From the NCBI GenBank assembly GCA_024224665.1, contig JAAENG010000096.1, forward strand, positions 1 through 32,978: 32,978 nucleotides of DNA. The letters are read 5' to 3'. The position numbers and the translations under genes are program-made. Under the pieces are notes generated by a model. It saw only the letters and a list, made by a program, of their open reading frames with translations. It was not told where the DNA came from and did no database searches. Shown here piece by piece: positions 7,537 to 28,422 of this stretch; positions within the stretch are counted from its first letter, which is position 1; each line of letters begins with the position of its first letter. This DNA comes from Chloroflexota bacterium (lineage in GTDB: Bacteria > Chloroflexota > Anaerolineae > J102).

Positions 7537-7565
7537 AGTGATACGGGCGTCTGACGTCCAATCAT

Positions 7566-7597
7566 ACGGGGCGGCCGATGGCCATCGGCCGCCCCGT
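7566..7597. terminator. 32-bp perfect palindrome after binding-protein gene 1
   Basis: ACGGGGCGGCCGATGG followed directly by its reverse complement gives a 16-bp GC-rich stem. It lies 29 bases after the lipoprotein stop and 28 bases before the M14 start. No T-run follows, so it is more likely a partial terminator or mRNA-stabilising hairpin than a full stop. Confidence 0.7.
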
Positions 7598-7625
7598 TCA
7601 CTATCATGTTCGGAGAAACATCGTA

Positions 7626-10228: not shown

Positions 10229-10249
10229 ATGGAGAGAGGTTGAGGAACT

Positions 10250-11185: not shown

Positions 11186-11192
11186 ACAACAC

Positions 11193-13047: not shown

Positions 13048-14115
13048 ATGAAAATTGGAACGGCAGAAAGCAAACCTGGTGAGATCGCCTATGGCGTGAT
13101 CACGGTCGGCTACACGATGGGACGGTTCCCCATCGAGATCCCTGTGGTGATCGTCGAGGGCAGCGAAGAAGGACCTACATTGGCAGTAAGCGGCGCAGTA
13201 CATGGGGCTGAATTACTAGGACCGATGGGTATCCACGAGTTCTTGCATCAGGTGGACCCCACTAAGGTCAAGGGCAGGATCATTCTCGTGCCTGTGGTCA
13301 ATCCGGGCGCATTCGAATTCGGTTTGCGTAACACCAAGTGGGATGGGCAGAATCTCAACCGTGAAGGGCTGGGCAAGATCGATGGCACTATCACCCAGCA
13401 GATTGCCTACCACTTTGTGCACGACGTCGTCGTAAAAGCTGATGCACTTGTTGACATTCACTCCGGCACCGAAGATGGTTTTGTCTGGTACACGATCTAC
13501 GAAGCCGCTTGTGAGGGAGTCGATCCGCAGGTGATCGAGAAATCGAAAAAGCTCGCTGTGGCCTTCGGACTACAGGAAATCATGGGGCAATGTCCCGATC
13601 GTTGGGCGGGCGGTTACATGGACGATGTACTACGAGCGGGCGTGCCCGCAGTCACCGTGGAGATCGGTGGTGGCGGCGATTACTTCATCAACGGCAAACA
13701 GCAGATCGAGATGTGCGCACAAGGCATAACGAACGCAGCGATCCTGTTGGGCATCATGGAAGGAGAGATCGTCACCGAGCTGGATGAAGTCACCTTCTGG
13801 CGCGGCGAGGCCGAGATCATCGCTGGAGCAAAAGGTGGCCTACTACGCACCAACGTTCAAATCGGTGATTTCTGTGAAGAAGGCAGTGTTTGGGGCGTGC
13901 TCTACGATCCCTATACCGGTATGGAAGTCGAACAACTTATCATGCCCATCGACTGCTATCAGTTGGCCAGCCTGCATCCGTGGCCGGCAGTTCGCCCTGG
14001 ATCGGCCATGTCGGTTCTGGGCAATAAAATGGGTGATGGCACAGTCAAGGTTAAGAGCATCCTGACTGATGTACCCGTGCGCGTTGGTGGAGCATACAAG
14101 ACCCGTCGAGATTGA
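13048..14115 (+). CDS. AspA/AstE-family deacylase 1
   Basis: A 355-residue soluble protein of the succinylglutamate desuccinylase/aspartoacylase group, a carboxypeptidase-like fold that removes acyl groups from N-acyl amino acids. Zinc ligands are H52 and E55 (VHGAE) and H138 (VDIHSG). NLNR (102-105) supplies the substrate-binding Asn/Arg pair, and E205 in VTVEIGGGG is the likely general base. The C-terminal 130 residues form a beta domain usual in this family. GGAG at 13035 supports the ATG. It is the first of five paralogues and is followed after 29 bases by a near-duplicate. DoeB/EutE, the N-acetyl-diaminobutyrate deacetylase, belongs to this superfamily, but the true acyl substrate here is unknown. 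Confidence 0.9.
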   Translation: MKIGTAESKPGEIAYGVITVGYTMGRFPIEIPVVIVEGSEEGPTLAVSGAVHGAELLGPMGIHEFLHQVDPTKVKGRIILVPVVNPGAFEFGLRNTKWDGQNLNREGLGKIDGTITQQIAYHFVHDVVVKADALVDIHSGTEDGFVWYTIYEAACEGVDPQVIEKSKKLAVAFGLQEIMGQCPDRWAGGYMDDVLRAGVPAVTVEIGGGGDYFINGKQQIEMCAQGITNAAILLGIMEGEIVTELDEVTFWRGEAEIIAGAKGGLLRTNVQIGDFCEEGSVWGVLYDPYTGMEVEQLIMPIDCYQLASLHPWPAVRPGSAMSVLGNKMGDGTVKVKSILTDVPVRVGGAYKTRRD

Positions 14116-14144
14116 AGACAGAGCGAAATAAAGGAGCAACAACT

Positions 14145-15212
14145 ATGAAAATCGGAACAGCAGAGAGCAAAAAGGGCGAAATCACCTATGGCGTGATCAC
14201 GGTCGGCTACACCATGGGGCGATTTCCTATCGAGATTCCCATTGTGATCGTCGAGGGTGTTGAGGATGGCCCCACCCTGGCGGTGAGTGGCGCCGTACAT
14301 GGCGGCGAACTGCTAGGGCCCATGGGCATCCACGAGTTCCTGCATCACATCGACCCGCAGGAGGTCAAGGGGCGAATCGTCCTCGTGCCCGTAGCAAATC
14401 CGGGCTCATTCGAGTTCGGGATGCGCTCGACACCATGGGACGAGGTGAACCTGAACCGGGTTGGCCTGGGCAAAGCCGACGGTGGCATCACCGAACAGAT
14501 CGCCTATCATTTTGCCAACGAGGTTGTTTTGCAAGCCGATGCACTGGTAGACATCCATTCTGGCACCGCTGACGGTTTCGTCTTCTACACCATTTACCGG
14601 GCCGAGACCGAGGGTGTCGATCCCCAAGTGCTCGAAATGTCCAAAAAGATGGCTGTAGCCTATGGCCTTCAAGAGATCATGGGCGCAACACCAACGCGCT
14701 GGGCCGGCGGCTATATGATGGACATTCTCAGATCAGGTGTACCCGCTATCACGGTAGAAATCGGCGGTGGCGGAGACTACTTCATCAACGGCAAACAGCA
14801 GATCGAAATGTGCGCACAAGGCATCAAGAACGTGGCGATCTTGATGGGTATGATGGAAGGCGAGATCATCACCGAACTGGATGAGGTTACCTTCTGGCGT
14901 GGCGAGGCTGAAATCATTGCCGGCTCGAAGGGTGGTCTGCTGCGCACTGACGTGCAAATCGGCGATTTCTGCCCGGGAGGCGGTGTGTGGGGCGTGCTTT
15001 ACAACCCCTACACCGGCGAGGAAGTCGAACGTCTTATCACCCCCATCGACTGCTACCAGTTGGCCAGCCTACATCCATGGCCGTCGGTACGGCCAGGCTC
15101 TGCTCTATCTGTACTGGGCAACAAGATGGGCGACGGCACCGTCAAGGTAAAGAGCGTCCTCACTGATGTGCCCGTTCGCACCGGAAAAGCATACAAGACA
15201 CGTCGAGACTAG
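14145..15212 (+). CDS. AspA/AstE-family deacylase 2 (tandem duplicate)
   Basis: Same length (355 residues) as deacylase 1 and about 80-90 percent identical by eye, with long runs of identical DNA, for example around GDYFINGKQQIEM. H52, E55, H138, NLNR and E205 are all retained. Differences cluster around residues 95-115 (WDEVNLNRVGLGKADGG against WDGQNLNREGLGKIDGT), next to the substrate-binding Asn/Arg, which would suit altered substrate preference. AAGGAG at 14131 selects ATG 14145 over an in-frame ATG at 14112 that overlaps the previous gene. It is followed after 26 bases by an M24-fold gene, so a deacylase-hydrolase pair is cotranscribed. Confidence 0.9.
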   Translation: MKIGTAESKKGEITYGVITVGYTMGRFPIEIPIVIVEGVEDGPTLAVSGAVHGGELLGPMGIHEFLHHIDPQEVKGRIVLVPVANPGSFEFGMRSTPWDEVNLNRVGLGKADGGITEQIAYHFANEVVLQADALVDIHSGTADGFVFYTIYRAETEGVDPQVLEMSKKMAVAYGLQEIMGATPTRWAGGYMMDILRSGVPAITVEIGGGGDYFINGKQQIEMCAQGIKNVAILMGMMEGEIITELDEVTFWRGEAEIIAGSKGGLLRTDVQIGDFCPGGGVWGVLYNPYTGEEVERLITPIDCYQLASLHPWPSVRPGSALSVLGNKMGDGTVKVKSVLTDVPVRTGKAYKTRRD

Positions 15213-15238
15213 ATAGACGCTGGCCTTAAGGAGGAAAC

Positions 15239-16375
15239 ATGGCTACAGTACCTGGCTTAGATGAACGTGACTCACGCTTCAAACGATTGCGAGAGGCAAT
15301 GGTGCGCGAGGGTTTGCAGGCCCTGGTGATCGCCGGCAAAGGGCACTGGTGGACCGGTCGCGGCTATTTCCGTTACCTGAGCGACTTTCACCTTTGGGGT
15401 CATGATGGCGCGATACTCTTTTCCGTGGAAGGAGACCCCTTTCTGACACTGACAAGCGGGGCAGTCGCCGCCCGCATCGGCCGTCGGGGCTGGATCGACA
15501 ATGTCCGCGGCGACCCCGAGATCGTTGTTGAGATCATGGCGGAGATGAAGCAACGCGGGCTAACCAAGGGCAAGGTAGGTGTTTGCGGATACGAGTACAT
15601 ACTTCCAGCTGGCATCCATGCCGCTCTGACCAGCGGTTTACCGAATGTCGAATTCGTCAACGCTGATCACGTCATTGATCGGGTACGTTCGATCAAGAGT
15701 CCTCTGGAAATTCAGCAGCAACGGGAGCTCTGGGTCTTGGCCAAAGCGGCTATGGCACGTTATGTCGATGAACTGGAAGCAGGAAAGAGCGAGTGGGAGG
15801 TTGCCGCTGCCGCCAGTCAAGTGGTTCTGGCCGGCGGAGGTCGAGACATCCTTGTCTTCTTCGGTGGCAACATCCCCGCAAACCGTCCCGTGAGCCTGGA
15901 GGGAATTCTGGGCTATCACATGGAGATTACAGGCCCCAGTGGTCACTGGTGTGAGTTAACTGTGACCCTGGCGTTTCGGGAACCGACTGACCTCGAGTTT
16001 AAGCGCATGGCGTCTGAGTTGCGCGCTTACGAGGAGATTCGTCATCAGGCCCGTCCCGGTGCACGCCTGAGCGATGTCACCGCCATCCTTGAAAGAGTCT
16101 ATCTCGAAGACGGCTGGAAATTAGCCCCCGAGCAGTCGCCCCACCATGACCTGCACGGCCAGGGAATGGACACTATCGAGTGGCCGCTATGGGGTAACCT
16201 AGACACCCGCCAGGATACCCTCTTCGAGGAAGGCATGACATTCTCCTTCCACCCCAGACGCAACCTACTTCCTGAAGTCCGAACAACCGGCATCAACGAA
16301 AATATCCTCATCACGGCTGATGGAATCGAGCGCCTCTCTGAGCCGTGGGACCTAAACTGGCGCGTGGTTAAGTAA
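15239..16375 (+). CDS. M24-fold hydrolase B with altered metal ligands
   Basis: A 378-residue paralogue of the protein at 4616-5752, with the same N-terminal GHWWTGRGYFRYLSDF block and the same replaced M24 ligand set: H226 (GYHMEI), E238 (GPSGHWCEL), H305 (HHDLHGQG), H338 (FSFHPRR) and N353. It is closer to paralogue C (shared VVLAGGGRD and FHLW-HDGAIL). A strong AAGGAGG just upstream supports ATG 15239. It probably folds like creatinase and hydrolyses a C-N bond in a small molecule. Xaa-Pro aminopeptidase annotation, which automatic pipelines would likely give, is not supported by the active-site residues. Confidence 0.88.
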   Translation: MATVPGLDERDSRFKRLREAMVREGLQALVIAGKGHWWTGRGYFRYLSDFHLWGHDGAILFSVEGDPFLTLTSGAVAARIGRRGWIDNVRGDPEIVVEIMAEMKQRGLTKGKVGVCGYEYILPAGIHAALTSGLPNVEFVNADHVIDRVRSIKSPLEIQQQRELWVLAKAAMARYVDELEAGKSEWEVAAAASQVVLAGGGRDILVFFGGNIPANRPVSLEGILGYHMEITGPSGHWCELTVTLAFREPTDLEFKRMASELRAYEEIRHQARPGARLSDVTAILERVYLEDGWKLAPEQSPHHDLHGQGMDTIEWPLWGNLDTRQDTLFEEGMTFSFHPRRNLLPEVRTTGINENILITADGIERLSEPWDLNWRVVK

Positions 16376-16482
16376 GCTAGGTTTTGTTGACGTTTCGATG
16401 AATTCATCACAAATGGAACAAATTCAACCTTTGGCCTGATAACAACAAATGTCAACAGAACCTAGGATAGAGAGGAAAAAGT

Positions 16483-17619
16483 ATGGCTACGAAGCCTGGA
16501 ATTGAAGAGCGCAATTTGCGTTTCGAGCGACTGCGAGAGTCGATGTCGAGCGATGGTCTAGACGCACTGATCCTCGCCGGCAAAGGCCACTGGTGGACAG
16601 GCCGTGGCTATTTTCGGTATCTGACCGACTTCCATCTGTGGGCTCACGACGGCGCGATCCTGATGCCATTGGCGGGTGAGCCGATGTTAACGCTGACCAG
16701 CGGTGCAGTGGCGGAGATGATCGCAGAGAACGGCTGGATCAGCGATGTGACCGGCGACCCCAAGATCGTCGTAGAAATCGCTCGGGCGATGAAGCGCAAA
16801 GGGCTGACCCGGGGCAAGGTGGGAATTGCCGGCTACAGCCAAACCATGGGTGTCGGCACTTACGAGATCCTCGCCAACAGTCTACCTAACGTTGATTTCG
16901 TCAACGCCGACCACGTTATGGATCGAGTTCGGGCGATAAAAAGCCCTTTGGAAATCGAGCAAAATCGAGAACTGTGGGTGCTGGCCAAAGCAGCCATGGA
17001 ACGCTTTGTCGAGGTGTTGGAGTCGGGTAGAACTCAGGCAGAACTGGCTGCCGAGGCTTGCAAGGTCGTCCTGGCCGGAGGTGGTCGTGATCTGCTGGTA
17101 TTCTTCAACGGTGACATCCCAGGAGAGAAAATCGTCTCCCTCGACGGACTGGTAGACTACCACATGGAGATTACAGGGCCGAGTGGTCACTGGTGCGAGT
17201 TGAACGTTACCTGTGCATACCGAGACCCCACCCCTTTAGAATTGAAACTGATGGAGACAGAGTTGCGCGCATACGACGAGATACGAAAGCAAGCCAAACC
17301 TGGCGTACGGCTTAGTGAACTGACAAGTACCTTGGAACAAGTGTACATTGAGGACGGCTGGAAGCTAGCCGAAAAACAATCTCCGCATCACGACATTCAC
17401 GGCCAGGGAATGGACGCAATCGAGTGGCCATTATGGGGAAATCTGGATACAGCGCAGGATGCTGTATTGGAGGAAGGAATGACCTTCTCTTTCCATGCCC
17501 GCCGTAACATTGAACCCTTTGCCGGTTTCACTCACATCGACGAGAACATCGTCGTTACCGCAAACGGCGCCGAGCGGTTTTCTGTACCCTGGGATCTACG
17601 CTGGCGCGAGATGCCATGA
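16483..17619 (+). CDS. M24-fold hydrolase C with altered metal ligands
   Basis: The third 378-residue paralogue, with GHWWTGRGYFRYLTDF, YHMEITGPSGHWCEL (H226, E238), HHDIHGQG (H305) and FSFHARR (H338). It departs from A and B at the fifth ligand position, where HIDENIVVT places Asp at 353 instead of Asn, and just before it (EPFAGFT instead of LPEVRTT). Those changes are at the expected active-site rim and suggest a different ligand. AGAGGAAA precedes the ATG. The 107-base gap from paralogue B holds isolated TGTTGAC (16385) and GTCAACA (16451) half-sites but no convincing operator. All three paralogues being identical in length argues for repeated duplication under constraint. Confidence 0.88.
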   Translation: MATKPGIEERNLRFERLRESMSSDGLDALILAGKGHWWTGRGYFRYLTDFHLWAHDGAILMPLAGEPMLTLTSGAVAEMIAENGWISDVTGDPKIVVEIARAMKRKGLTRGKVGIAGYSQTMGVGTYEILANSLPNVDFVNADHVMDRVRAIKSPLEIEQNRELWVLAKAAMERFVEVLESGRTQAELAAEACKVVLAGGGRDLLVFFNGDIPGEKIVSLDGLVDYHMEITGPSGHWCELNVTCAYRDPTPLELKLMETELRAYDEIRKQAKPGVRLSELTSTLEQVYIEDGWKLAEKQSPHHDIHGQGMDAIEWPLWGNLDTAQDAVLEEGMTFSFHARRNIEPFAGFTHIDENIVVTANGAERFSVPWDLRWREMP

Positions 17620-17654
17620 GAAAAGCATCGCCTAGATTTCACCGAGATTTAGTT

Positions 17655-17683
17655 TTGACCCGCGACGTACGTTATGCTAGGCT
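17655..17683 (+). promoter_or_regulatory. Possible internal promoter before M24-fold gene D
   Basis: TTGACC (17655-17660), 17 bases, TAGGCT (17678-17683) in the 187-base gap between M24-fold genes C and D. It resembles the promoter at 3561 but lacks the downstream operator palindrome. A weak -10 makes this tentative. Confidence 0.35.
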
Positions 17684-17806
17684 CGTCACGTTGTGTTTGT
17701 CGGTTTTCAACATCTGCATGTACGGCATTTTGTCTGGCAAACGGGTCATCGCCTATTGCGTCCATCCCTATCCTCCCGGTCGCCCAGGTAAGGAGACATC
17801 CTGGTC

Positions 17807-19006
17807 ATGATGATCGAACTTCCACCTGAGGAATATACCGCAAGACTCGACAGGGTTCGAGAAGCCCTGCGAGACGCAGAAAGGGACGCCCTCTGTATCT
17901 TCAGTGCAGTAAGCATTTTATACTTAACCGGCTTTCGGCACTCGCCGAGTGAGCGCCCTGTGGTTTTACTCGTGCCAGCCGACGGTGAACCGGGCATCCT
18001 CGTCCCAGAGTTGGAAGAGGCGCATCTGCCGATCCGTGTACCCTGGCTCAAGACTGTACAGGTCTATCCGGAGTATCCCGGTCTCCGCCATCCGATCGAG
18101 TACCTTGTTGAGCTTATCACCAGGATGGGCCTCTCGCCCAACCGCCTGGCAGCCGACTCCCTCTCTTATGGCGCACCGGGTTACCGTGGCCCTTCGTTGT
18201 CCGACATCTTGGGCGGCATCAAGATCGCAACCTGGCCCCATTTAATCGAGGAAATGCGGATGATCAAGTCCCCGGCCGAGATCCAACTTATCCGTAACTC
18301 GGTCATCTTTGGCAATATGCAACATCGCTTCATCCAGGATATCATCGCGCCTGGCAAGACGGAGATCGAAGTCAGTCTCGTGGCTTGCGCCGAGGGGGTG
18401 AGTATGATGTTCGATGAATTAACGAAGCTGGGCATCGACTATATTGGCCAGGACAACGGCAGCATCCCTGTGCCCGGAGGGCTGATTTCCGGCCCTACCA
18501 GCGCCTTGCCTCACCCGTTAGATACCAACCGTCCCATGGAGGCCGGCGATGTTATCATTAGTTGGTCCGGCGGCGCCATTCTGGACGGGCACTCCAGCGA
18601 ACTAGAACGTACTATGATCCTGGGTACGCCTACGGCGGAGCAGCGGCGGCTCTTCGACATCATGCACACAGCCCAAGACATCGCCTTCGAGACAATTCGG
18701 CCAGGGATACCCTGTAAAGAGGTGGATGAGGCGGTCTACGATTTCGCGGACAAGGCCGGCGTGTTGCATATGCGCCACCATCACACAGGTCACGGCCGGG
18801 GCTACGAGGGGCATGAGATGCCTTTCTTCGATCTCGGCGATGAAACAATTCTGCAGCCCGGCATGGTAATGAGTGTAGAGCCGGGTTTCTATGCGCCCGG
18901 TATTGGTGGTTTCCGCCATTCCGACACCATTGTTGTGACAGAGTCTGGCTGCGACATTTTGACAAACTACCCGCGCAGTTTGGAGGAGCTGACGATAGCA
19001 GTCTAG
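17807..19006 (+). CDS. M24-family protein D (creatinase/prolidase-like, degenerate metal site)
   Basis: A 399-residue two-domain M24 protein from a different branch than A-C and closer to ordinary Xaa-Pro peptidase-like sequences: N-terminal ILYLTGFRHSPSERP, linker RMIKSPAEIQLIR, then the pita-bread domain. Of the five classical ligands only H329 (HTGHGRG) and E358 (MSVEPG) are kept; the first Asp is W253 (GDVIISWSGG), the second is E265 (GHSSELERT) and the last Glu is S372 (GFRHSDT). A classical two-metal site is therefore unlikely. AAGGAG at about 17790 supports ATG 17807 over upstream frames. Ectoine hydrolase DoeA/EutD is another M24 protein of about this length, but I cannot assign that function from sequence alone. 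Confidence 0.87.
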   Translation: MMIELPPEEYTARLDRVREALRDAERDALCIFSAVSILYLTGFRHSPSERPVVLLVPADGEPGILVPELEEAHLPIRVPWLKTVQVYPEYPGLRHPIEYLVELITRMGLSPNRLAADSLSYGAPGYRGPSLSDILGGIKIATWPHLIEEMRMIKSPAEIQLIRNSVIFGNMQHRFIQDIIAPGKTEIEVSLVACAEGVSMMFDELTKLGIDYIGQDNGSIPVPGGLISGPTSALPHPLDTNRPMEAGDVIISWSGGAILDGHSSELERTMILGTPTAEQRRLFDIMHTAQDIAFETIRPGIPCKEVDEAVYDFADKAGVLHMRHHHTGHGRGYEGHEMPFFDLGDETILQPGMVMSVEPGFYAPGIGGFRHSDTIVVTESGCDILTNYPRSLEELTIAV

Positions 19007-19310
19007 CCTCATTACACATCTGCCCCATAGCACAAGACGTGTTGGCAATCAACGACATTAGCAAAACGCACTTGCTGTAAGAAAAAAGGAGGTGATGGAT
19101 AGCATAAACTTAAGCTTCGAGTCTCGGCTGTTGAACAGCCAAAAGTGTCCCCACCGATCGTGAGTAAGGCTTTTTCAGAAAATGATGATCCCGTTCAGCC
19201 TGAAAAAGCCCCAAGCGAATACCTGAATCGCGTGAATCTCTGGATTATTGTTTCCTGGTATTCGCCTAAACCCATCTAGAACCATTGACCTTTGTCAAGG
19301 AGAGCCAAAA
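19007..19310. other. Intergenic leader of second importer operon
   Basis: About 300 bases with no gene. It contains AAGGAGGTGATG (19086-19097) with no usable start codon at the right distance, the hairpin at 19168-19210, and TTGAC-CTTT-GTCAA (19285-19298) overlapping the Shine-Dalgarno of the lipoprotein gene. The last could be a small operator or RNA hairpin masking the ribosome binding site. I found no convincing -35/-10 pair. Confidence 0.45.
19168..19210. terminator. Hairpin upstream of the second binding-protein gene
   Basis: GGCTTTTTCAG and CTGAAAAAGCC form a perfect 11-bp stem with a 21-base loop. It could end transcription coming from the M24 genes or act as a leader structure. There is no T-run after the stem, so the terminator call is weak. 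Confidence 0.4.
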
Positions 19311-20912
19311 ATGAAGAGCAAACTGTTTTTACCACTCAGCCTGATCCTGGTAGCCGTCATGCTGGTAACTGGCTGCGTTGCGCCGGCCGCTCCAGCCGCT
19401 CAGCCGCCGGTCGTAGAGGAGGAACCTGCTGCCGAAGCACCGGCAGTGGAAGAAGCCCCCGCCGAGGTGCAAAAGACCCTGACAGTCGGCATTGCCGAGG
19501 ATGTCTCGTCACTGGATCCGCCCACGGACTGGGCCATCGTCACCACCTGGGTCGTCTCGAACATGTTCGACTGCCTCGTGTGGCGCGGCCGCGTGGACCA
19601 TGATGATTTCGCACCGGTGCTGGCTGAAAGTTGGGAGATCATTGACGACCTCACCTGGCGATTCAAGTTACGAGAGGGTGTCAATTTCCACAACGGCGAA
19701 CCTTACAACGCCGAGGCAGCTAAATTCAGCATCGACCGCATCCTCAACGATGATCAGATGATCGTGCATTCTCAGTGGACACATATCGACGAGGTAAAAA
19801 TCGTCGACGATTACACCATCGATATCGTAACAGCCTATCCCGTTCCCGACATGCTCTCTAAGCTTGCCGGCACAGGCTGCGGTAACGTTCCGCCCAAGCT
19901 AGTGCAGGAGATCGGCAAAGATGAATTCGCCAAGAACCCGGTCGGCACCGGTCCCTTCATGTTCAAAGAATGGGTGCGCGATGATCACATCTCCATGGTC
20001 GCCAATCCTGATTATTGGCAAGGTCCTGCGGAGATCGAGGAACTGACATTTCGCGTCATCCCCGAGCCTTCCACAAGGGTGGCTGAACTGTTGACCGGAG
20101 GCGTTGACATCACCGATCCGGTCGAACCGCAAGACTGGGATCGCATCGAAGAGGCCGAGGGCCTCGAATTGATCAAAGCTCCTACGACCCGGACGATGTT
20201 GCTTGTACACCGCGCCGATGAGGGCTTTGTTACCGCAGATCCGTTGATTCGTGAGGCCATCGACTACGCCATCGATGACGCCGCCTTAGTGGAGCTGATC
20301 GGAGACATGGGTACCCCGGTACTCTCGCGCGTAACGCCACCGACCATGTCATGGAGTCCCGACTATTTCGACCAGTACAACTACGATCCCGAGAAGGCGA
20401 AGGCGCTGATGGAGGAGGCGGGATACGACGGTGAGCCGATTACCTTGCACTCTACGACATCCTGGTTCTTACAGAAAGAAGTGGCCGAGGCGACTGCTGC
20501 CATGTTGACCGAAGCCGGATTCAATGTTGACCTTCAGATCATGGAACCCAGCACCTTCCGCGAACAGGTCTACTATCCACAAGACGCCAACAAAGAGATT
20601 ATGATGCTGGCGCTTGGCAATAGTTTCTTCGATCCCTGGATCGCCATGAAGGGCTTCCACTCCGGAGAGTCCCGCCAGCGTTCCCATTGGAAGAACGAAG
20701 AATTCGATGAGCTTTGGCGATCCGCCTTGGTGGAAATGGACCCGGAGGTTCGGGAGCAGATGTTCCTCGATATGCAGGCCCTTGTGGCCGAAGGACGGCC
20801 GTACAACACGCTGTATTTCATGAAGACCGCGTACGGCAAGGACAAGAGCCTGGATTGGCCGATCCCACCCGATAACTTCTACTGGATGCACAACGCTCAT
20901 TTCACCGAGTAG
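19311..20912 (+). CDS. ABC transporter substrate-binding lipoprotein 2 (SBP_bac_5 type)
   Basis: A 533-residue binding lipoprotein homologous to the one at 5890. ATG 19311 follows AAGGAG (19298-19303) and begins a lipoprotein signal: MKSKLFLPLSLILVAVMLVT with cysteine 22 (lipobox VTGC), then an Ala/Pro/Glu-rich tether. The mature domain shows REGVNFHNGEPYNAEAAKF, VGTGPF and FRVIPEPSTRVAELLTGGVD. The ligand-contact regions differ from protein 1 (TTRTMLLVHRADEG here, against a VYGLTIAHEP-type segment), so the two importers probably take related but different ligands. It is followed by a hairpin and then its own permease pair. Confidence 0.95.
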   Translation: MKSKLFLPLSLILVAVMLVTGCVAPAAPAAQPPVVEEEPAAEAPAVEEAPAEVQKTLTVGIAEDVSSLDPPTDWAIVTTWVVSNMFDCLVWRGRVDHDDFAPVLAESWEIIDDLTWRFKLREGVNFHNGEPYNAEAAKFSIDRILNDDQMIVHSQWTHIDEVKIVDDYTIDIVTAYPVPDMLSKLAGTGCGNVPPKLVQEIGKDEFAKNPVGTGPFMFKEWVRDDHISMVANPDYWQGPAEIEELTFRVIPEPSTRVAELLTGGVDITDPVEPQDWDRIEEAEGLELIKAPTTRTMLLVHRADEGFVTADPLIREAIDYAIDDAALVELIGDMGTPVLSRVTPPTMSWSPDYFDQYNYDPEKAKALMEEAGYDGEPITLHSTTSWFLQKEVAEATAAMLTEAGFNVDLQIMEPSTFREQVYYPQDANKEIMMLALGNSFFDPWIAMKGFHSGESRQRSHWKNEEFDELWRSALVEMDPEVREQMFLDMQALVAEGRPYNTLYFMKTAYGKDKSLDWPIPPDNFYWMHNAHFTE

Positions 20913-20926
20913 CTGCTGATAGGCCG

Positions 20927-20954
20927 AGAGGGGACGTCGTATGATGTCCCCTCT
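20927..20954 (+). terminator. Hairpin after binding-protein gene 2
   Basis: AGAGGGGACGTC and GATGTCCCCTCT pair as a 12-bp stem with one G-U pair and a GTAT loop, followed by TT. As after the first binding-protein gene, this probably lowers readthrough into the permeases or stabilises the lipoprotein mRNA. Confidence 0.65.
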
Positions 20955-21003
20955 TTGCTGAGAGTTCGACAATAAATAGGTTTCCGCCCAGGAAAGTTAA
21001 CTC

Positions 21004-21921
21004 GTGCAACGATATCTGATACGCCGTGTGTTGGAGATTATCCCGACGATCTTCATCCTCACACTGATCGTCTTCTTCGTCATCCGTTTGAAGGGTGATC
21101 CGATAGCTCAATTGGCGCCCTTCGATCTGAACCAAGAGGAGATCGAGATGCTGCGTAGCGCCTATGGGCTCGACCAGCCGTTGCATATCCAGTATTGGAA
21201 ATTCCTCTCCAAGCTGGTGGTGGGCGATTTCGGCAGATCTATGCGCTATCATGCCCCTGCCATGCCGATCGTGCTCGAACGCATCCCCGCCACCCTAGAG
21301 CTTGCCTTTGCTGCCCTGATATTTTCGCTTGTCATATCCTTACCCCTTGGGATAACTTCGGCCCTAAAACCCAACTCTCTCCTGGATCTGGTCGCCACGA
21401 CCTTCTCGGCCATTGGCCGCGCCATGCCGTCGTATTGGCTTGGAATCATGTTAATCTTATTTCTGGCAGTGGCCTATCCCATTTTCCCGGTTTCTGGTCG
21501 AGACAAGCCAGGCAGCATCATTCTGCCCATGGTCACTCTGGGCCTGGGACTGGCGACAACCTTGACCCGCATTATCCGCTCCAGCATGCTCGAGGTTGTT
21601 CGCCAGGATTACATCACCACGGCCAGGTCAAAGGGATTACATGACCGCGTCATCCTCATCAAGCATGCGCTTCGAAACGCCTTGATTCCAGTGATCACTG
21701 TCTTCGCTTTGCAGATGGCGTGGCTTTTCAGTGGTGTGGTAATCGTGGAAACGGTCTTTGCCTGGCCCGGCATGGGGCGCCTGTTGGTCAAGGCAGTTCA
21801 GACCCGAGATATGGCCGTAGTGCAGGCCGGTATATTCATTGCCGCCATGGCAGTTTTGATCATCAACCTACTCACAGATGTTATCTATACAGTCGTCGAT
21901 CCCAGGATCAGTTATGACTGA
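21004..21921 (+). CDS. ABC transporter permease 3 (DppB/OppB type)
   Basis: A 305-residue inner-membrane permease of the second importer. The frame opens with GTG at 21004 after AGGAAAG (20990-20996). MQRYLIRRVLEIIPTIFILT is the usual first helix of the family, the EAA loop is DYITTARSKGL followed by IKHALRNALIPVIT, and the C-terminus ends DPRISYD. It pairs with the gene at 21993. It is similar in sequence to permease 1, implying that the whole importer was duplicated. Confidence 0.95.
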   Translation: MQRYLIRRVLEIIPTIFILTLIVFFVIRLKGDPIAQLAPFDLNQEEIEMLRSAYGLDQPLHIQYWKFLSKLVVGDFGRSMRYHAPAMPIVLERIPATLELAFAALIFSLVISLPLGITSALKPNSLLDLVATTFSAIGRAMPSYWLGIMLILFLAVAYPIFPVSGRDKPGSIILPMVTLGLGLATTLTRIIRSSMLEVVRQDYITTARSKGLHDRVILIKHALRNALIPVITVFALQMAWLFSGVVIVETVFAWPGMGRLLVKAVQTRDMAVVQAGIFIAAMAVLIINLLTDVIYTVVDPRISYD

Positions 21922-21992
21922 CATCGAGACGCTATTTTATTGCCGCGCTTTGCTTCATCAACCGGCGCCTCTAGCCTCCCCTGGAATGCTCA

Positions 21993-22904
21993 ATGACTGA
22001 AACATCGCCATCAATGCCCCAATTGAAGCCGGCAAGAACACGACGGAACTATATGTTGAGCCGTCTGCGCAAGAGCCCGGTCGGGATCATCGGCGTGATT
22101 ATCGTCGGACTCGTATTCTTCATGGCCATTTTTGCACCCCTGATCATGCCGCACGATCCCACGGAATTCGATTTCAAGCAAAGGCTGGTTCCCCCCGTCT
22201 GGCAGGAAGGAGGATCCTGGGATTACATTCTCGGTTCGGATCAAATGGGCAGGGACCTGCTCAGCCGTCTCATTATCGGATCACGTATCTCCGTTCTCGT
22301 CGGCATAAGCGCCGTATTAATTGCTGGCTCTCTCGGAATCTCAGTGGGTCTTCTGGCAGGCTTTCGCGGCGGCTGGATCGACTCCGTATCCATGCGCGTT
22401 GTAGATGCCTTTTTCGCCGTCCCCTTCATCCTGATGGCGATGACCATCGTGGGAATGCTCGGCCCCAGCGTCCTGACTGTGGTAGTAACCCTGGGATTGG
22501 TGCAATGGCAGAGCTACGCTCGCGTGGTGCGAGCCGAGGTGTTGACCTTGCGGGAGCGCGAGTACGTGACCGCAGCTCACGTGATTGGCCAGTCCCATTT
22601 CAAGATCGCCTCTCGTCACATCCTGCCCAATGCCATGGCCTCGGTGATCGTACTGGCAACATTGCAGGTAGCGGCCACCATCATCGCCGAATCAGCGTTG
22701 AGCTTCCTGGGCGTGGGCGTGCAGCCCCCTACAGTAACTTGGGGTTTGATGCTGGCCGATGGTCGAAACTATTTGGCCGGCGCCTGGTGGCTGGCCACAT
22801 TCCCGGGAGTGGCGATCACAATTACAGTCCTCGGCATCATTTTCCTGGGGGATTGGCTGCGCGATGTCCTCGATCCCAGGCTGCGAGGAACAGGAGAAGC
22901 CTAG
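21993..22904 (+). CDS. ABC transporter permease 4 (DppC/OppC type)
   Basis: A 303-residue permease with a short cytoplasmic N-terminus, LGSDQMGRDLLSRLIIGSRI, the EAA loop REYVTAAHVIGQ...HILPNAMASVIV and a GDWLRDVLDPRL ending. A 71-base gap separates it from permease 3. The ATG at 21993 has only a weak purine-rich stretch upstream. As for importer 1, no ATPase gene follows; the next gene is an AspA/AstE-type deacylase. Confidence 0.94.
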   Translation: MTETSPSMPQLKPARTRRNYMLSRLRKSPVGIIGVIIVGLVFFMAIFAPLIMPHDPTEFDFKQRLVPPVWQEGGSWDYILGSDQMGRDLLSRLIIGSRISVLVGISAVLIAGSLGISVGLLAGFRGGWIDSVSMRVVDAFFAVPFILMAMTIVGMLGPSVLTVVVTLGLVQWQSYARVVRAEVLTLREREYVTAAHVIGQSHFKIASRHILPNAMASVIVLATLQVAATIIAESALSFLGVGVQPPTVTWGLMLADGRNYLAGAWWLATFPGVAITITVLGIIFLGDWLRDVLDPRLRGTGEA

Positions 22905-22976
22905 CCGAAAATAGTGGTCTGAAGGCTCTCCATTGGATACAACATATTTATTCACAGAACAGGAGAAAACAATACT

Positions 22977-23993
22977 ATGAAAGTTGGAGATATCGTTGGA
23001 CAGTCCGGTCAAAAGGTCAGAGGTCGGCTACTTGTCACCTATACGACGGCGCAGATCCCCGTCGAACTGCCCGTCACGATTGTCATGGGCGCAAAGCCGG
23101 GCAGAACGCTGGTGGTGACTGCAGCCCTGCACGGACGCGAGGCTATCGGCCCTCTTGGCCTAGGTAAAGTGCTACGAGAGATCGATCCTAGTCAAATGAG
23201 TGGCAACCTGATCGCCGTGCCCTGTGTGAACATGAGTGGTCGCGAGTTCGACCAGCGCCATGTCCTTTGGGACGATAAGGACCCGAACCGCCAGAAATCG
23301 GGCAAAAAGGATGGCACGGTCACCGAGCGACTTGTTTATCACCTGTTCCATGAAGTGATCCTGAAAGGTGACGCGCACGTCGATATCCATTCCAGCAGCT
23401 CGGTTGGGCTTGTCTGGTATACACTCTATCATGAGACCAAGGACACTTCTCCTGAGACGCTACGTAAAACGAAAGAAATGTCGATGGCGTTCGGTCTCGA
23501 ACAAGTAATGGGCAAGACACCCTGGCACGGTACCATTCTGGAGGAAAGCATGAACGCGGGCATCCCCGCCATTACGCCCGAGGTCGGGGGCGGTGGGGAT
23601 TTCTATCAGAACGGACGCAAGCAGATCGATTGGTGCGCTCGTGGCATTGTCAACGTGATGAAGTTGATGGGCATCTTGCCAGGTGAGATCGAGACTGAGT
23701 CGAACAAAGCGATCATCTGGGATGGTCATACCGAGATTTTGAATGACGGCAGAGGAGCGCTGATGCTTGTGGAAGCCAAGCGCGGACAGATGCTCAAAAA
23801 GGGCGACCTCTTCGCCATCAAATACGACCCGACAACGGGTGATGAGCTGGCCAGGTATTATGCGCCGGCCGACGGCACGGTTCTCAACACCGGCCTGGTC
23901 TGGCCCCACTGCCCACCGAATCAGTTCCTGGGTGTGTTGGGCGATAAAATGGACGAAGTCGATCTAACAACTCACCAGTGGACGTGGGAGTAA
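22977..23993 (+). CDS. AspA/AstE-family deacylase 3 (divergent)
   Basis: A 338-residue paralogue with the zinc ligands at the same positions as the others: H52 and E55 (LHGRE) and H138 (VDIHSS), with E202 in ITPEVGGGG as general base. The Asn/Arg motif reads KDPNRQ (101-106), with Pro replacing the Leu of NLNR, and the residues after H138 are SSSS instead of SGT/SGG. Those two changes sit beside the substrate carboxylate pocket. AGGAG at 22961-22965 precedes the ATG. The gene follows the second permease pair directly, so its substrate is likely the ligand of importer 2 or a product made from it. Confidence 0.88.
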   Translation: MKVGDIVGQSGQKVRGRLLVTYTTAQIPVELPVTIVMGAKPGRTLVVTAALHGREAIGPLGLGKVLREIDPSQMSGNLIAVPCVNMSGREFDQRHVLWDDKDPNRQKSGKKDGTVTERLVYHLFHEVILKGDAHVDIHSSSSVGLVWYTLYHETKDTSPETLRKTKEMSMAFGLEQVMGKTPWHGTILEESMNAGIPAITPEVGGGGDFYQNGRKQIDWCARGIVNVMKLMGILPGEIETESNKAIIWDGHTEILNDGRGALMLVEAKRGQMLKKGDLFAIKYDPTTGDELARYYAPADGTVLNTGLVWPHCPPNQFLGVLGDKMDEVDLTTHQWTWE

Positions 23994-23999
23994 TAGGCT

Positions 24000-24977
24000 A
24001 TGAAAACCCTGGTGACCGGCGCCATCGGCTTCGTTGGGATCAACGTTGTTCGGCTGCTGGCCGAGCAGGACAATCAGGTGGTGGCACTGTACCGCACCCC
24101 GCCCGATCAAGACGCACTTGACTTTCTAGAGCCGGTTCGTGATCGTATAGATCTGTTGCCGGGAGATGTTGAGGATCAAGAGCAGCTGTCGGCCATTGTG
24201 CAGGAGCACAGACCCGAGGGCATCATCCACGGCGCTGCTATGACGCCAAGGCCCGAGACCGAGCGTGCGATGCCGGCGCGTATCATGAACATCAATTTCA
24301 TGGGCACGATAAAGGCCCTTGACGCAGCCAGAGAAAATGGCGTTCGCTCGTTCGTCTATGTCAGTTCCAACGGCCTCTACGGCGGCATAGAGGACCCCAC
24401 CAAACCGGTGACAGAAGATACGCCGGCTCGTGGCGATAATCTCTATGCCATCGCAAAAGTCGCCAGTGAGGCGGTCTGCAACCGCTATAAGAACATGTAC
24501 GGGATAAACACCGTTTCGGGTCGCGTCTGCGCAACGTATGGTCCCATGGAAAGGCCGACTCGGTCTCGAACCGGAATGTCGGCGATCTGTGAAATGGCCA
24601 GAGCGCTGCTTGAGGGGCAGGTTCTGCGAGTTCGGGGTGTAGAAGTTGCCCGGAGCTGGACCCACGTTGCCGACATCGCAGGCGAGTTGATTGCGCTCCT
24701 GGAGGCTCCCAAACACAGCTACGATGCCTACAATGTCTCCTACGGAGTCGCCTACACTTTGCAGCAGGTGCTGGACGACTTCACAACGGTGGAGCCCAAG
24801 TTCCGTTACGAGATCGTCGGTCCAAATGACGAGGCAGATGTGGCTTATGGGCCTGATGCGCAGCGGGGTCCCCTGGATATCACCCGAATGCGAGAGGATA
24901 TCGGTTTCCAACCCAAGTTCGACCTGGCAACAGGCATAGCAGACTACATGACCTGGTTACACTCAACGACTGTATAG
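24000..24977 (+). CDS. NAD(P)-dependent epimerase/dehydratase (extended SDR)
   Basis: A 325-residue Rossmann-fold enzyme. The nucleotide-binding motif is GAIGFVG (7-13), an acidic GDVEDQ (55-60) follows, and the active site has VSSNGLYG (121-128) with Y149 and K153 in YAIAK. The C-terminal domain has a WTHVADIAG segment typical of nucleotide-sugar or hydroxyacid SDRs. It starts six bases after the stop of deacylase 3, so the two are cotranscribed. Placed between deacylases, it more likely works on a hydroxy- or keto-acid product than on sugar nucleotides, but that is inference. Confidence 0.92.
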   Translation: MKTLVTGAIGFVGINVVRLLAEQDNQVVALYRTPPDQDALDFLEPVRDRIDLLPGDVEDQEQLSAIVQEHRPEGIIHGAAMTPRPETERAMPARIMNINFMGTIKALDAARENGVRSFVYVSSNGLYGGIEDPTKPVTEDTPARGDNLYAIAKVASEAVCNRYKNMYGINTVSGRVCATYGPMERPTRSRTGMSAICEMARALLEGQVLRVRGVEVARSWTHVADIAGELIALLEAPKHSYDAYNVSYGVAYTLQQVLDDFTTVEPKFRYEIVGPNDEADVAYGPDAQRGPLDITRMREDIGFQPKFDLATGIADYMTWLHSTTV

Positions 24978-25004
24978 TCTATTCAAAGGATAAAAAGGAT
25001 CATT

Positions 25005-26024
25005 ATGAAAATCAGCAACATCGAATGTGGGCGTGGCGAACGCGCTTTTGGTTACATGCAGGTGGATGAGACCCGCGGTCGTATTCCGGTCAGCATCCCT
25101 ATCAATATCGTCCGTGGAATAGAAGATGGACCGACCTTACTGGTGGACGCAGCGCTCCACGGTGAGGAGAACATTGGCACGGTAGCCATTGGGCAACTGC
25201 TACGCACACTGGAACCCAAGGATATCAAGGGAACCCTGATCGCTGTGCCGGTCGTCAACACAGCCGGATTCGAGTTTCAGCAACGAGAGGTGACTTGGGA
25301 CGGCAAGGACTTGAATCGTCAGGGAGAAGGCGACCCCGATGGCACCGAGGCGCAGCGTCTAGCCCACGCCTACCTTAATGAGGTTGTGTATAAAGCAGAC
25401 TACTACATCGACATCCATTCCGGAGGACCCGATGCATTCGTGTGGTACACAATCTACGAGGATTCACCAGACTTGGCCCCCAAAGTGGTGACTGATAGCA
25501 AGCAAATGGCCCTGGCGTATGGTTTGATAGATGTGTTCTGCCGCACGCCCTGGCACGGCACGCTACATGAGGTCACTGTGCGCAGAGGAATTCCCACTAT
25601 CAGTCCCGAGATGGGAGGTGGTGCAGACTTTATGTGGAACGGCCAGGAGATGGTGGACATCGGTATGCAAGGAATCGTCAACGTAATGATCATGCTGGGC
25701 ATGTTGGATGGCACGATGGTACTCCAAGGGCCAAAAACCAAAATCTGGGATGCCAAGCATGAGATCACTAGCGGTCCCCACCATGGCATCTTTATGCGCA
25801 AGCGCCAATGGGGTGAGAGAATGAAAAAGGGCGAGGTCTACGGTACCATGTACCACCCCTACACCGGAGAGAGTCTGGCCGACATCCTCGCGCCCGAGGA
25901 CGGCACGATTCTTAACAGCGGCCGAGTATGGCCGGTAGTGGTGCGCAACCGCTTCGCCACTATCCTGGGAGATATGGTGGAGGAGATAACGCTGAGCGAG
26001 TCGGAGTTGGCGCAATTCATGTAG
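25005..26024 (+). CDS. AspA/AstE-family deacylase 4
   Basis: A 339-residue paralogue with H52, E55 (LHGEE), KDLNRQ (101-106), H138 (IDIHSG) and E202 (SPEMGGGAD). It is closest to deacylase 5 (shared KISNIEC/KIGNIEC start and FQQR-V-WDGKDLNRQG). An AAAAAGGAT stretch precedes the ATG. It lies after the SDR gene with a 27-base gap, in the same operon. The C-terminal beta domain is shorter than in deacylase 5. Confidence 0.9.
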   Translation: MKISNIECGRGERAFGYMQVDETRGRIPVSIPINIVRGIEDGPTLLVDAALHGEENIGTVAIGQLLRTLEPKDIKGTLIAVPVVNTAGFEFQQREVTWDGKDLNRQGEGDPDGTEAQRLAHAYLNEVVYKADYYIDIHSGGPDAFVWYTIYEDSPDLAPKVVTDSKQMALAYGLIDVFCRTPWHGTLHEVTVRRGIPTISPEMGGGADFMWNGQEMVDIGMQGIVNVMIMLGMLDGTMVLQGPKTKIWDAKHEITSGPHHGIFMRKRQWGERMKKGEVYGTMYHPYTGESLADILAPEDGTILNSGRVWPVVVRNRFATILGDMVEEITLSESELAQFM

Positions 26025-26070
26025 TGTCGAGCGCTCGTATACTCTGCGAGTGGTGTATCAATAAACCTGT

Positions 26071-26121
26071 AGTCGAGGCTTTTGGGCATCTTGCGCTACG
26101 TTACCAGCAAAAGCCTCGACT
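26071..26121. promoter_or_regulatory. 14-bp stem-loop between deacylases 4 and 5
   Basis: AGTCGAGGCTTTTG and CAAAAGCCTCGACT form a perfect 14-bp stem around a 23-base loop in a 129-base gap. CTTAGCTTTTTCAG follows the stem, so it may be a partial terminator or an RNA-processing/stabilising structure within the operon. Confidence 0.55.
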
Positions 26122-26153
26122 CTTAGCTTTTTCAGAACAATAAGGATGGAAAT

Positions 26154-27206
26154 ATGAAGATCGGGAATATCGAATGCAAGCCCGGGGAGCGCACATTTGG
26201 CTATCTGGAAGTGGATCGCACCGTCTCGGAGTTGCCCATCAGCATACCTCTGACAATCCTGTGCGGACCTAAAGAGGGCCCGACGCTGGTCGTCGATGCC
26301 GCACTCCATGGCGATGAGAACGTGGGCAGTGTAGCTATCGGCCAGTTCCTACGCAATATCGATGTAAGCGAAATCAAGGGAACGGTGATAGCGATTCCAG
26401 TGGTCAATACATCCGGATATGAGTTCCAGCAGCGCGCAGTGATGTGGGATGGCAAGGACCTCAACCGCCAAGGCGGCGGAGACCCCAACGGTACGGCTGC
26501 ACAGCGCCTGGCCTACACCTATTTCCAGGAGGTGGTTGCCAAAGCAGATGCATTCATCGACATCCACTCAGGCACGCCCGATGGCCTCGTTTACTATACC
26601 TTTTACGAGGCACATCTGGAGGGCACGAAACCGGAAGTTATCGCGCGCAGTAGAGAGATGGGGCTTGCCTTCGGCCTGGCAGACGTATTCTCTGAGACCC
26701 CATGGCCCGGTACGTTCGAGGAGGTGGCCCTCAAGCATGATGTCCCATCCATCTCGGTCGAGATCGGCGGCGGTTCTGACTGGCGTTATCGCGGGCAGTC
26801 GTTCATCAATGAATGCGAGCGGGGCATCCGCAATGTGATGATTATGTTCGGGATGTTGGATGGCAAGATCGTGACCAATGAGCCACAGGCTAAAATTTGG
26901 CGTATCACCCATGAAGTATTCAGCGGTTCCTATCAGGGTTACTTCTTGCGCAACCCTGAATTGGGTCCTGATTTTGGGATGGCGGTACAGAAGGGAGATG
27001 TGTACGGCTCCATGTATCATCCCTTTACCGGCGCCAAGTTGGGCGATATCCTGATACCCGACGACGGCTATTTGCTGCAAAGTGCTCGCCTCTGGCCGGT
27101 CATCCCGCGCAATCGTTTCCTGACCATTATCGGCGACCTGGCGGAGGAAGTAGCGTTGGAGACAACTTCGTTTGCCCACTTACTGGCGTCGAGTGCCGCA
27201 CCTTAG
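26154..27206 (+). CDS. AspA/AstE-family deacylase 5
   Basis: A 350-residue paralogue with H52, E55 (LHGDE), KDLNRQ (101-106), H138 (IDIHSG) and E203 (SVEIGGGSD). It differs from deacylase 4 by an insertion near 265-275 (RNPELGPDFGM) in the C-terminal beta domain. AAGGATGG precedes the ATG. Deacylases 4 and 5 form a second adjacent pair but are clearly older duplicates than 1 and 2. Confidence 0.9.
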   Translation: MKIGNIECKPGERTFGYLEVDRTVSELPISIPLTILCGPKEGPTLVVDAALHGDENVGSVAIGQFLRNIDVSEIKGTVIAIPVVNTSGYEFQQRAVMWDGKDLNRQGGGDPNGTAAQRLAYTYFQEVVAKADAFIDIHSGTPDGLVYYTFYEAHLEGTKPEVIARSREMGLAFGLADVFSETPWPGTFEEVALKHDVPSISVEIGGGSDWRYRGQSFINECERGIRNVMIMFGMLDGKIVTNEPQAKIWRITHEVFSGSYQGYFLRNPELGPDFGMAVQKGDVYGSMYHPFTGAKLGDILIPDDGYLLQSARLWPVIPRNRFLTIIGDLAEEVALETTSFAHLLASSAAP

Positions 27207-27259: not shown

Positions 27260-28363
27260 ATGAATATTACAAACGATAGACTTCGAGTAGGAGTTGTAGG
27301 CGCCGATATCCACAAGCGAGGATTCGGTGCGCGGGCACATTTGCCGGCTGTCTTGGCATCGCCGGCGGTACAGCTAGACGCGATCTGCACTGCACACCCA
27401 GAGACTGCCAAAGAGTCGGCGGCTATATGGGGGGCACCCAAATACTACAGCGACCATCGCGATTTGGTTGGTGATCCCGACATTGATCTGATAACCATTG
27501 CCGTCACCGTGGAAGCGCACTATCCTATCGCAAAGGCTGCAATGGAGGCAGGCAAGACAGTTTACTGCGAATGGCCGTTGGCTTCTAACCTAGATGAGGC
27601 GCGCGATCTGGCGGATCTAGCCCATGCTCAGGGTGCTGTCGCCATGGTGGGCATGCAGGGACGATTCTCACCGGGTGTGCAATACCTTAAGGAACTATTG
27701 GATGACGGATTAGTCGGCCGCCCCCTCTTTTTCCACCTCACTCACTTTCTACCCCGCTTCCCTGTCCGTTCCGATCATTGGTGGTCAGCCACCAAAGAGG
27801 CAGGAAGCGGCGCGCTCAACATTGCGTTGGCCCATGCTACCGAGCCGACTCAATTTCTATTGGGTCAAATTGCGGCAGTATGCGGCATGGCTGGCACACT
27901 ATTACCAGGTGATTACTTTAGCGATACCGGAGAACCGTTCGACTGGACTGCCGAAGACACCGTAGCTGTGATGGCACGCACGGAGGAGGGGGTGCAGGGC
28001 GTGATCCACGTTAGCAATATTGGAACGCAGCGATCGGGCTTCCGCTTGCAGATCTTTGGAGATCAAGGGCAGGTTTTGATCCAGGCTCCCCGCTATGTTT
28101 CTTACACACCTACCCGTCTTTTCAAGGCCGTTCGGGGGGAAGCTGAACTGTTAGAGATCCCGGTTCCGGCCCATTTCTACCACGTCCCTGAACTGAGTGA
28201 AAATGAGACGGGCTATAATATTGCAGAAGCGTTGGTAACGCTGGCAAGTGCCCACCGCAGCCAGACAAGCGTCCGCCCTGATTTGTCCGATGGCTACCAC
28301 ATGCATCTTTTGGTGGATGCTATTCGCCGTTCGGTTGACCAAGGTGCTTGGGTTGATGTTTAA
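27260..28363 (+). CDS. Gfo/Idh/MocA-family oxidoreductase
   Basis: A 367-residue NAD(P)-dependent oxidoreductase with an N-terminal Rossmann domain (LRVGVVGADI, 8-17) and a C-terminal alpha/beta domain (from about 125). The usual EKP motif reads EWP here (CEWPLASN, 103-110), so the Lys that helps catalysis in most members is a Trp, as in Gal80-like relatives. A SGALNIALAHATEP segment replaces the common GG-H-D region. It may be a dehydrogenase with altered chemistry or a sensor-like protein. No good ribosome binding site precedes ATG 27260. It is the last plus-strand gene before the bidirectional hairpin at 28379-28422. Confidence 0.9.
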   Translation: MNITNDRLRVGVVGADIHKRGFGARAHLPAVLASPAVQLDAICTAHPETAKESAAIWGAPKYYSDHRDLVGDPDIDLITIAVTVEAHYPIAKAAMEAGKTVYCEWPLASNLDEARDLADLAHAQGAVAMVGMQGRFSPGVQYLKELLDDGLVGRPLFFHLTHFLPRFPVRSDHWWSATKEAGSGALNIALAHATEPTQFLLGQIAAVCGMAGTLLPGDYFSDTGEPFDWTAEDTVAVMARTEEGVQGVIHVSNIGTQRSGFRLQIFGDQGQVLIQAPRYVSYTPTRLFKAVRGEAELLEIPVPAHFYHVPELSENETGYNIAEALVTLASAHRSQTSVRPDLSDGYHMHLLVDAIRRSVDQGAWVDV

Positions 28364-28378
28364 AACTTAGAACAGAAA

Positions 28379-28422
28379 AACATGCAGAATTACGGCCTGA
28401 ACTGGCCGTAATTCTGCATGTT
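28379..28422. terminator. Terminator between convergent operons
   Basis: AACATGCAGAATTACGGCC, loop TGAACT and its exact reverse complement form a 19-bp stem. On the minus strand it is followed by TTTTTCTG, a proper intrinsic terminator for the GGT-like gene. On the plus strand the T-run is missing, but the stem could still slow polymerase coming from the Gfo/Idh gene. Confidence 0.85.

Follow-up and report, generated by a model that had tools for sequence, protein, structure and literature searches.

Five AspA/AstE-like genes in one contig

The stretch of DNA analysed here (hereafter, the window) is a complete contig of 32,978 bp (C96; JAAENG010000096.1) from the draft genome of an uncultured Chloroflexota bacterium of the class Anaerolineae (5.77 Mb, 628 contigs). 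Between positions 13048 and 27206, its plus strand carries five genes for predicted AspA/AstE-like zinc deacylases, AstE1 to AstE5, which belong to a run of plus-strand genes (2145-28363) that also holds four M24-family genes, two transporter sets and further enzymes (Table 1). In tetranucleotide profile and GC content, the contig is closer to other contigs of its own genome than to contigs of relatives, and we rejected the possibility of a mis-binned contig on these grounds.

An initial annotation, made from the sequence alone, had proposed five paralogues at this position sharing invariant zinc ligands, and both parts of this observation hold. All five open reading frames (ORFs) match PF24827 (AstE_AspA_cat) with 68-76 bits, well above the Pfam cut-off of 25, and their alignment places H52, E55, N104, R105, D136 and H138 at identical residue numbers, with the catalytic glutamate at residue 205, 205, 202, 202 and 203 of AstE1 to AstE5, respectively; R94 is likewise present in all five. 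This numbering follows from a start of AstE2 at the ATG preceded by AGGAG, rather than at the TTG (14112) chosen by the ORF caller, which would add 11 residues. Shared residue numbers as such merely reflect homologues without N-terminal insertions or deletions; the constraint itself is real. In the carboxypeptidase A numbering given in a review of pseudometallopeptidases (PMC11266112), H52, E55 and H138 correspond to H69, E72 and H196 of carboxypeptidase A, R105 to R145, and E205 to E270, and R94 would, from its order within the motif, correspond to R127. The residues that characterise the AspA/AstE superfamily (HxxE...H zinc ligands, Arg, Asn-Arg and catalytic Glu) are thus found in each of the five proteins, which have the zinc deacylase/amidohydrolase fold with all active-site residues kept and are predicted to be active. 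A sixth or degenerate copy was sought across the window and none was found, and a PHROGs search with AstE1 and AstE4 gave no match. The sixth AspA/AstE-like gene of the genome lies on another contig (C350; L075:12751-13752) and belongs to a different clade; its product shares 75% of its residues with the outer AstE in the clusters of relatives described below, and the neighbouring genes encode M24 and M14 proteins, a solute-binding protein (SBP), permeases and an aminotransferase.

Apart from the close AstE1-AstE2 pair, the copies share 39-55% of their residues, most pairs about 40%. For AstE1 and AstE2, the synonymous divergence (dS) is about 1.4 and the ratio of nonsynonymous to synonymous substitution rates (dN/dS) 0.08; across the window copies dN/dS ranges from 0.08 to 0.30, the other pairs being near dS saturation, which accompanies the higher values. 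Given this divergence and the low dN/dS, the copies are old and each retained under constraint: judged by substitution rates, the five are an old expansion under purifying selection. Redundant duplication for dosage, with identical activities, might be suspected for the adjacent and similar AstE1 and AstE2, but even this pair has diverged to a dS of about 1.4, and the remaining copies, at 39-55% identity, approach saturation in dS, as expected of old genes that were each kept; we regard this explanation as unlikely. Diverged and separately constrained copies instead fit a set of related substrates, as the initial annotation had suggested, and since the copies diverged long ago and are all constrained, different members probably handle related substrates. 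Its further proposal, a concentration of variation next to the Asn/Arg motif and beyond H138, is contradicted by an entropy test. Mean column entropy in these regions is 0.84 bits, compared to 0.97 bits in random windows from the catalytic domain (P = 0.83), a difference that runs against the proposal, although the test is a weak one with five sequences. The most variable parts are residues 213-225 (1.28 bits), the C-terminal domain (1.26 bits) and residues 176-200 (1.20 bits).

A distinct clade and its zinc-less paralogues

In a tree of 96 proteins, the five window genes are monophyletic (support 100/96) and join two gene groups of one other family of the class ('f19') in a clade of 39 with support 100/100; a smaller tree repeats both groupings (99/96 and 100/99). 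For the branching order among the window, intact and zinc-less clades, a topology test favoured no single order, with approximately unbiased p-values (p-AU) of 0.16-0.27. The DoeB proteins of Leisingera, Klebsiella and Sinorhizobium (the last as the tree places it) fall outside the window clade, and E. coli AstE forms a distant long branch. The nearest relatives of the five in the tree come from loci of the same class, Anaerolineae; a scan of genome contigs with the five-row window alignment yielded 50 pattern matches, with no relative among them. On these trees, the five genes fall into a single clade, separate from AspA, AstE and DoeB, and are not orthologues of DoeB, AstE or ASPA. The initial annotation had missed this clade, as well as the M24 paralogues, the two SBP-permease sets and the pairing of intact and zinc-less genes in relatives.

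How unusual is such a cluster? The initial annotation had called five copies in 14 kb unusual. Among 80 related genomes, 13 have a PF24827 match at all, and within the same family this holds for one of 19 others, none of which has more than one. A scan of 396 genomes of the class found close relatives almost confined to the f19 family, where they occur in tandem. On the other side, one relative (L061) has up to five AspA/AstE-like genes within about 8 kb, and a plasmid of Cytobacillus oceanisediminis (NZ_CP062791.1; L110, 166451-203389) carries five in about 16 kb, where two Opp/Dpp-type transporters are also encoded. The plasmid copies belong to other clades of the 96-protein tree, and multi-copy clusters therefore arose more than once. 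Such clusters are uncommon, not unique.

The most surprising finding concerns the relatives. Scanning 84,980 genomes with their intact proteins recovered 48 loci, nearly all from Anaerolineae/Chloroflexota drafts. Their constant gene order is AT2, AT1 (two aminotransferase genes), short-chain dehydrogenase, Ldh_2, S9 peptidase, intact AstE and a second AstE (AstE'), followed 3' by genes for a major facilitator superfamily (MFS) protein, OCD, M24, PrpD and SBP/permeases; of these, AT2-AT1, M24, SBP and permeases also surround the clade's genes in the window. AstE' follows the intact gene in 44 of the 48 loci. In three of the remaining four the available sequence ends at or just past the intact gene, and the fourth (L158) is rearranged: an intact gene without a partner lies next to a pair in a different orientation. 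All 54 intact copies keep H52, E55, R94, H138 and E205, with N104 replaced by Ser or Thr in 52. AstE' (n = 51), in contrast, has lost H52, R94 and E205 in every case and H138 in 47 (always to Arg), and retains E55 in all 51 and N104 in 49. With dN/dS of 0.10-0.19, compared to 0.05-0.14 for the intact copies, AstE' genes encode functional proteins rather than being in decay, and several of the relatives' genomes show duplications of the entire pair. AstE' would most likely serve in a heteromer, as its regulatory or structural subunit. Names of many of the genomes behind the 48 loci suggest a sponge origin, the habitat being read from the names. The same cluster also occurs in two entries labelled Trueperaceae/Truepera (L125, CP070651.1, and L132), which points either to transfer into Deinococcota or to drafts with wrong labels.

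A zinc-less copy downstream of an intact one was sought in the window and none was found, all five being intact. The window copies might nevertheless be obligate heteromers, AstE1 with AstE2 and AstE4 with AstE5, in which one subunit is regulatory despite its intact site. These are adjacent pairs, and in the relatives a zinc-less copy follows the intact one wherever the contig continues, bar the unpaired gene of L158. However, every catalytic residue is kept in all five window copies, and the adjacent pairs are mutual sisters rather than members of two paralogous lines, which makes this arrangement improbable.

M24 partners and surrounding genes

AstE1, AstE2, M24b and M24c are contiguous, with gaps of 26-107 bp. 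M24a, M24b and M24c share 57-67% identity and carry L/M-E-H-I-H-N/D at the active-site positions, as opposed to D-D-H-H-E-E in canonical M24 proteins and E-P-Y-Y-M-T in DoeA; the canonical dinuclear metal site is absent from all four window M24 proteins, including M24d. The relatives' M24 proteins have I-E-H-S-H-S in 48 of 48 cases, an E-H-H remnant being common to them and M24a-c, and the two sets group together (Shimodaira-Hasegawa-like approximate likelihood ratio, SH-aLRT, 99) outside the DoeA clade. M24a-c have lost the M24 two-metal site and, like the relatives' M24 proteins, are neither prolidase-like nor DoeA-like, and the common E, H and H could hold one metal ion.

Association of the two enzyme types extends beyond the window. 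The genome has 11 M24 matches, at least five of them on the two contigs that bear all six AstE-type genes (C96 and C350); these contigs amount to about 54 of 5,766 kb, for which the chance expectation is about 0.1 M24 matches. Seven further genomes have close homologues of M24a-c (51-57% identical), and loci from five of these (L103-L109) combine epimerase, DUF1028, M55, M14, permeases and more distant AstE in varying mixes, so that the gene set of the window represents a recurring, reshuffled toolkit. A 474-aa protein encoded near the edge of the window (124-1548, minus strand) has no Pfam or NCBIfam match and is 69% identical to a protein (L108:5976-7394) that adjoins an AstE-epimerase-DUF1028 run in another genome.

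Like M24a-c (57-67%), the transporter sets (43-58%) are duplicated, indicating that the whole module was multiplied and not the deacylase alone. AT2 and AT1 have as best NCBIfam model, below its cut-off, GntC, a pyridoxal phosphate (PLP)-dependent cyclodehydratase making cyclic guanidine, and the pair is kept beside most of the relatives' clusters (e.g. L066:1261-3527). A gamma-glutamyltranspeptidase gene lies, as do AT1 and AT2, on the strand opposite to the plus-strand run. Promoter and terminator scans of the window showed no enrichment over shuffles, except for the strong hairpin at 28379-28422.

Table 1. Features of the window and of the related loci discussed in the text
Feature	Position	Strand	Description
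AstE1	13048..14115	+	Predicted AspA/AstE-like zinc deacylase; H52 E55 R94 N104 R105 H138 E205; PF24827 76 bits and alignment
AstE2	14145..15212	+	Tandem copy of AstE1, 83% identical; ATG start 14145; Glu at 205
AstE3	22977..23993	+	Single copy, immediately 3' of second permease pair; Glu at 202
AstE4	25005..26024	+	PF24827 match; Glu at 202
AstE5	26154..27206	+	55% identical to AstE4; Glu at 203
M24a	4616..5752	+	Creatinase/DoeA-fold hydrolase; metal-site pattern LEHIHN in place of DDHHEE
M24b	15239..16375	+	MEHIHN; 26 bp 3' of AstE2; nearest solved folds EutD/DoeA
M24c	16483..17619	+	MEHIHD; 67% identical to M24b
M24d	17807..19006	+	More distant M24 protein; SEHHES
Hydantoinase/allantoinase-like amidohydrolase	2145..3527	+	Profile match
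SBP1, family 5 solute-binding lipoprotein	5827..7536	+	PF00496
M14 zinc carboxypeptidase	7578..9341	+	PF00246
DUF1028 + PG_binding_2 protein	9179..10228	+	Start uncertain
Permease B1 (Opp/Dpp type)	10250..11185	+	
Permease C1 (OppC_N)	11193..12119	+	
M55 D-aminopeptidase, DppA-like	12140..12976	+	Below equivalog cut-off
SBP2	19311..20912	+	43% identical to SBP1
Permease B2	21004..21921	+	55% identical to B1
Permease C2	21993..22904	+	58% identical to C1
NAD-dependent epimerase/dehydratase	24000..24977	+	Between AstE3 and AstE4; homologue adjoins AstE in L103, L104, L108
Gfo/Idh/MocA oxidoreductase	27260..28363	+	Final gene of the plus-strand run
Inverted repeat, 19 pairs, terminator-like	28379..28422		Between the plus-strand run and the opposed (converging) genes
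AT1, class I/II aminotransferase	30109..31302	-	57-62% identical to AT1 adjoining relatives' arrays
AT2, aminotransferase-like	31326..32429	-	Upstream of AT1 as in relatives; 39-43% identical
Tandem intact + zinc-less AstE	L061-L072, L114-L161		e.g. L066:9617-11653

Proposed function and comparison with known systems

By profile and fold, the nearest characterised relative of the five deacylase-like proteins is DoeB/EutE. The best solved structures for the AstE1 model are 3na6 and the product-bound EutE/DoeB structure 6twm (E about 1e-17), and the five best structure matches of the M24b model are all EutD/DoeA chains, so that both partners independently point to one known bimodule. In this bimodule, EutD is the enzyme that opens the ring of ectoine and EutE the deacetylase, and efficient degradation requires the two (PMC8739950, PMC13188858). 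With moderate confidence, we consider the five genes to represent a lineage-specific expansion of a new AspA/AstE clade within a nutrient-scavenging importer-hydrolase-deacylase cluster that parallels EutD-EutE. In such a cluster, the two family 5 SBPs and Opp/Dpp-type permeases would import small peptide-like or nitrogen-rich amino-acid derivatives, the M24-fold hydrolases with their altered metal site would open or cut the imported compound, and AstE1-5, for which fold and residues are in place, would take off the acyl group or cleave the amide that is left. The freed amino acid might then pass to the aminotransferases AT1 and AT2, for removal of the amino group, and to the dehydrogenases. 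The Eut-like pairing favours N-acyl or cyclic nitrogen-rich amino-acid derivatives as candidate substrates.

Several points weigh against this interpretation. Although DoeB (TIGR02994) is the top NCBIfam profile of all five proteins, the scores of 79-113 bits are far below the equivalog cut-off of 402.7, and the DoeA profiles (TIGR02993, NF038259), which are among the best matches of M24a-c, reach 40-61 compared to 575-613 bits. Model confidence is middling, with a predicted local distance difference test (pLDDT) score of 66 for AstE1, whose core is good and whose C-terminal part is below 50; the M24b model scores 68. Both transporter sets (5827-12119 and 19311-22904) are complete in SBP, permease B and permease C, and no ATPase gene was found in the window; the ATPase is likely shared from elsewhere in the genome. 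In addition, M14, M55, DUF1028, gamma-glutamyltranspeptidase and the relatives' S9 peptidase indicate peptides as much as cyclic amidines. The class of chemistry is likely, with the substrates as candidates.

Ectoine or hydroxyectoine could themselves be the substrates if M24a-c were DoeA and AstE1-5 were DoeB, given that the Eut/Doe enzymes are the nearest characterised relatives of both partners and that the relatives' OCD gene resembles EutC (146 vs 472 bits). However, all scores remain far under the equivalog cut-offs, AstE1-5 and M24a-c lie outside the DoeB and DoeA clades, and the M24 active site reads MEHIHN rather than EPYYMT. Moreover, the window genes scanned include no EnuR, Ssd, UehABC or EhuABCD and no match to an eutABC/enuR profile, and every curated eutD/eutE pair comes from Proteobacteria (PMC8739950). 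Profile scores, trees and M24 residues led us to reject the breakdown of ectoine itself, which we consider very improbable.

The peptidases and the precedent of CphZ favour dipeptides or isopeptides. The five proteins could, like CphZ, be dipeptidases or isopeptidases acting on imported dipeptides rather than deacylases, with M24, M14, M55 and S9 as further peptidases of a peptide-scavenging cluster. The Opp/Dpp-type importers and the M14, M55, DUF1028 and gamma-glutamyltranspeptidase genes of the window agree with this possibility, as does the S9 peptidase gene that 44 of the 48 loci have next to their arrays; CphZ structures are also matched by the AstE1 fold, and the superfamily is known to include isoaspartyl dipeptidase activity (PMC10206079). 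Yet CphZ ranks below EutE at 13-14% identity, M24a-c are without the two-metal peptidase site, and neither cyanophycinase nor cyanophycin synthetase is encoded in the window, and we rate this account as rather doubtful.

Returning to the deacylase cluster that parallels EutD-EutE, we see in the five genes a known kind of enzyme, in a clade and an arrangement that are both new. The observation behind the initial annotation is confirmed, and its interpretation is partly supported. A further-reaching proposal, which we put forward tentatively, is that of a new Anaerolineae hydrolase-deacylase system, in which a mononuclear or metal-free M24 clade would act with the new AspA/AstE clade, the latter as an obligate heteromer of zinc and zinc-less subunits in most carriers, and in which the window lineage would have multiplied the intact form for related substrates. 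Anaerolineae are abundant, mostly uncultured, and their diet is poorly known; a conserved and often duplicated importer-hydrolase-deacylase module in about 50 loci gives a concrete clue, open to testing, to the kind of nutrient used. With the strictly paired zinc-less paralogue, the AspA/AstE fold has a pseudoenzyme in bacteria, of which the passages of the pseudometallopeptidase review drawn upon here mention no example (PMC11266112), and comparing the all-intact set of the window with the relatives' pairs could help to test what the dead partner adds.

In common with EutD-EutE/DoeA-DoeB, the window has adjacent genes for an M24-fold hydrolase and an AspA/AstE-fold zinc deacylase, together with a solute importer, and the Eut/Doe enzymes provide the nearest solved folds for both partners. 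In contrast to the known system, the window genes are not orthologous, score below equivalog cut-offs and differ in the M24 active site; their importer is of the Opp/Dpp type rather than TRAP/Ehu, EnuR is absent, and five plus three copies replace one plus one. With AstE and ASPA, the five proteins share the PF24827 domain, the HxxE...H zinc site, the N-R motif and the catalytic Glu, but the arginine succinyltransferase pathway is not represented by astCADB neighbours in the window, and E. coli AstE is distant. CphZ, a hydrolase of the cyanophycin dipeptide beta-Asp-Arg, shows isopeptide cleavage to be possible in this superfamily (PMC10206079); it has an AspA/AstE-like fold, while its identity to the window proteins is low (13-14%) and the window lacks a cyanophycinase context. 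The Cytobacillus oceanisediminis plasmid NZ_CP062791 matches the window in having five genes of the AspA/AstE-like type along with a pair of Opp/Dpp-type transporters, and differs as an independent expansion in other clades, with no M24 gene annotated and transporter ATPases present. Catabolic paralogue expansions have also been reported for enolases and monooxygenases of SAR202 Chloroflexota (PMC10444878). While these involve other enzyme families and another class (Dehalococcoidia), they resemble the present case as extensive families of old paralogues with catabolic roles, and they come from the same phylum.

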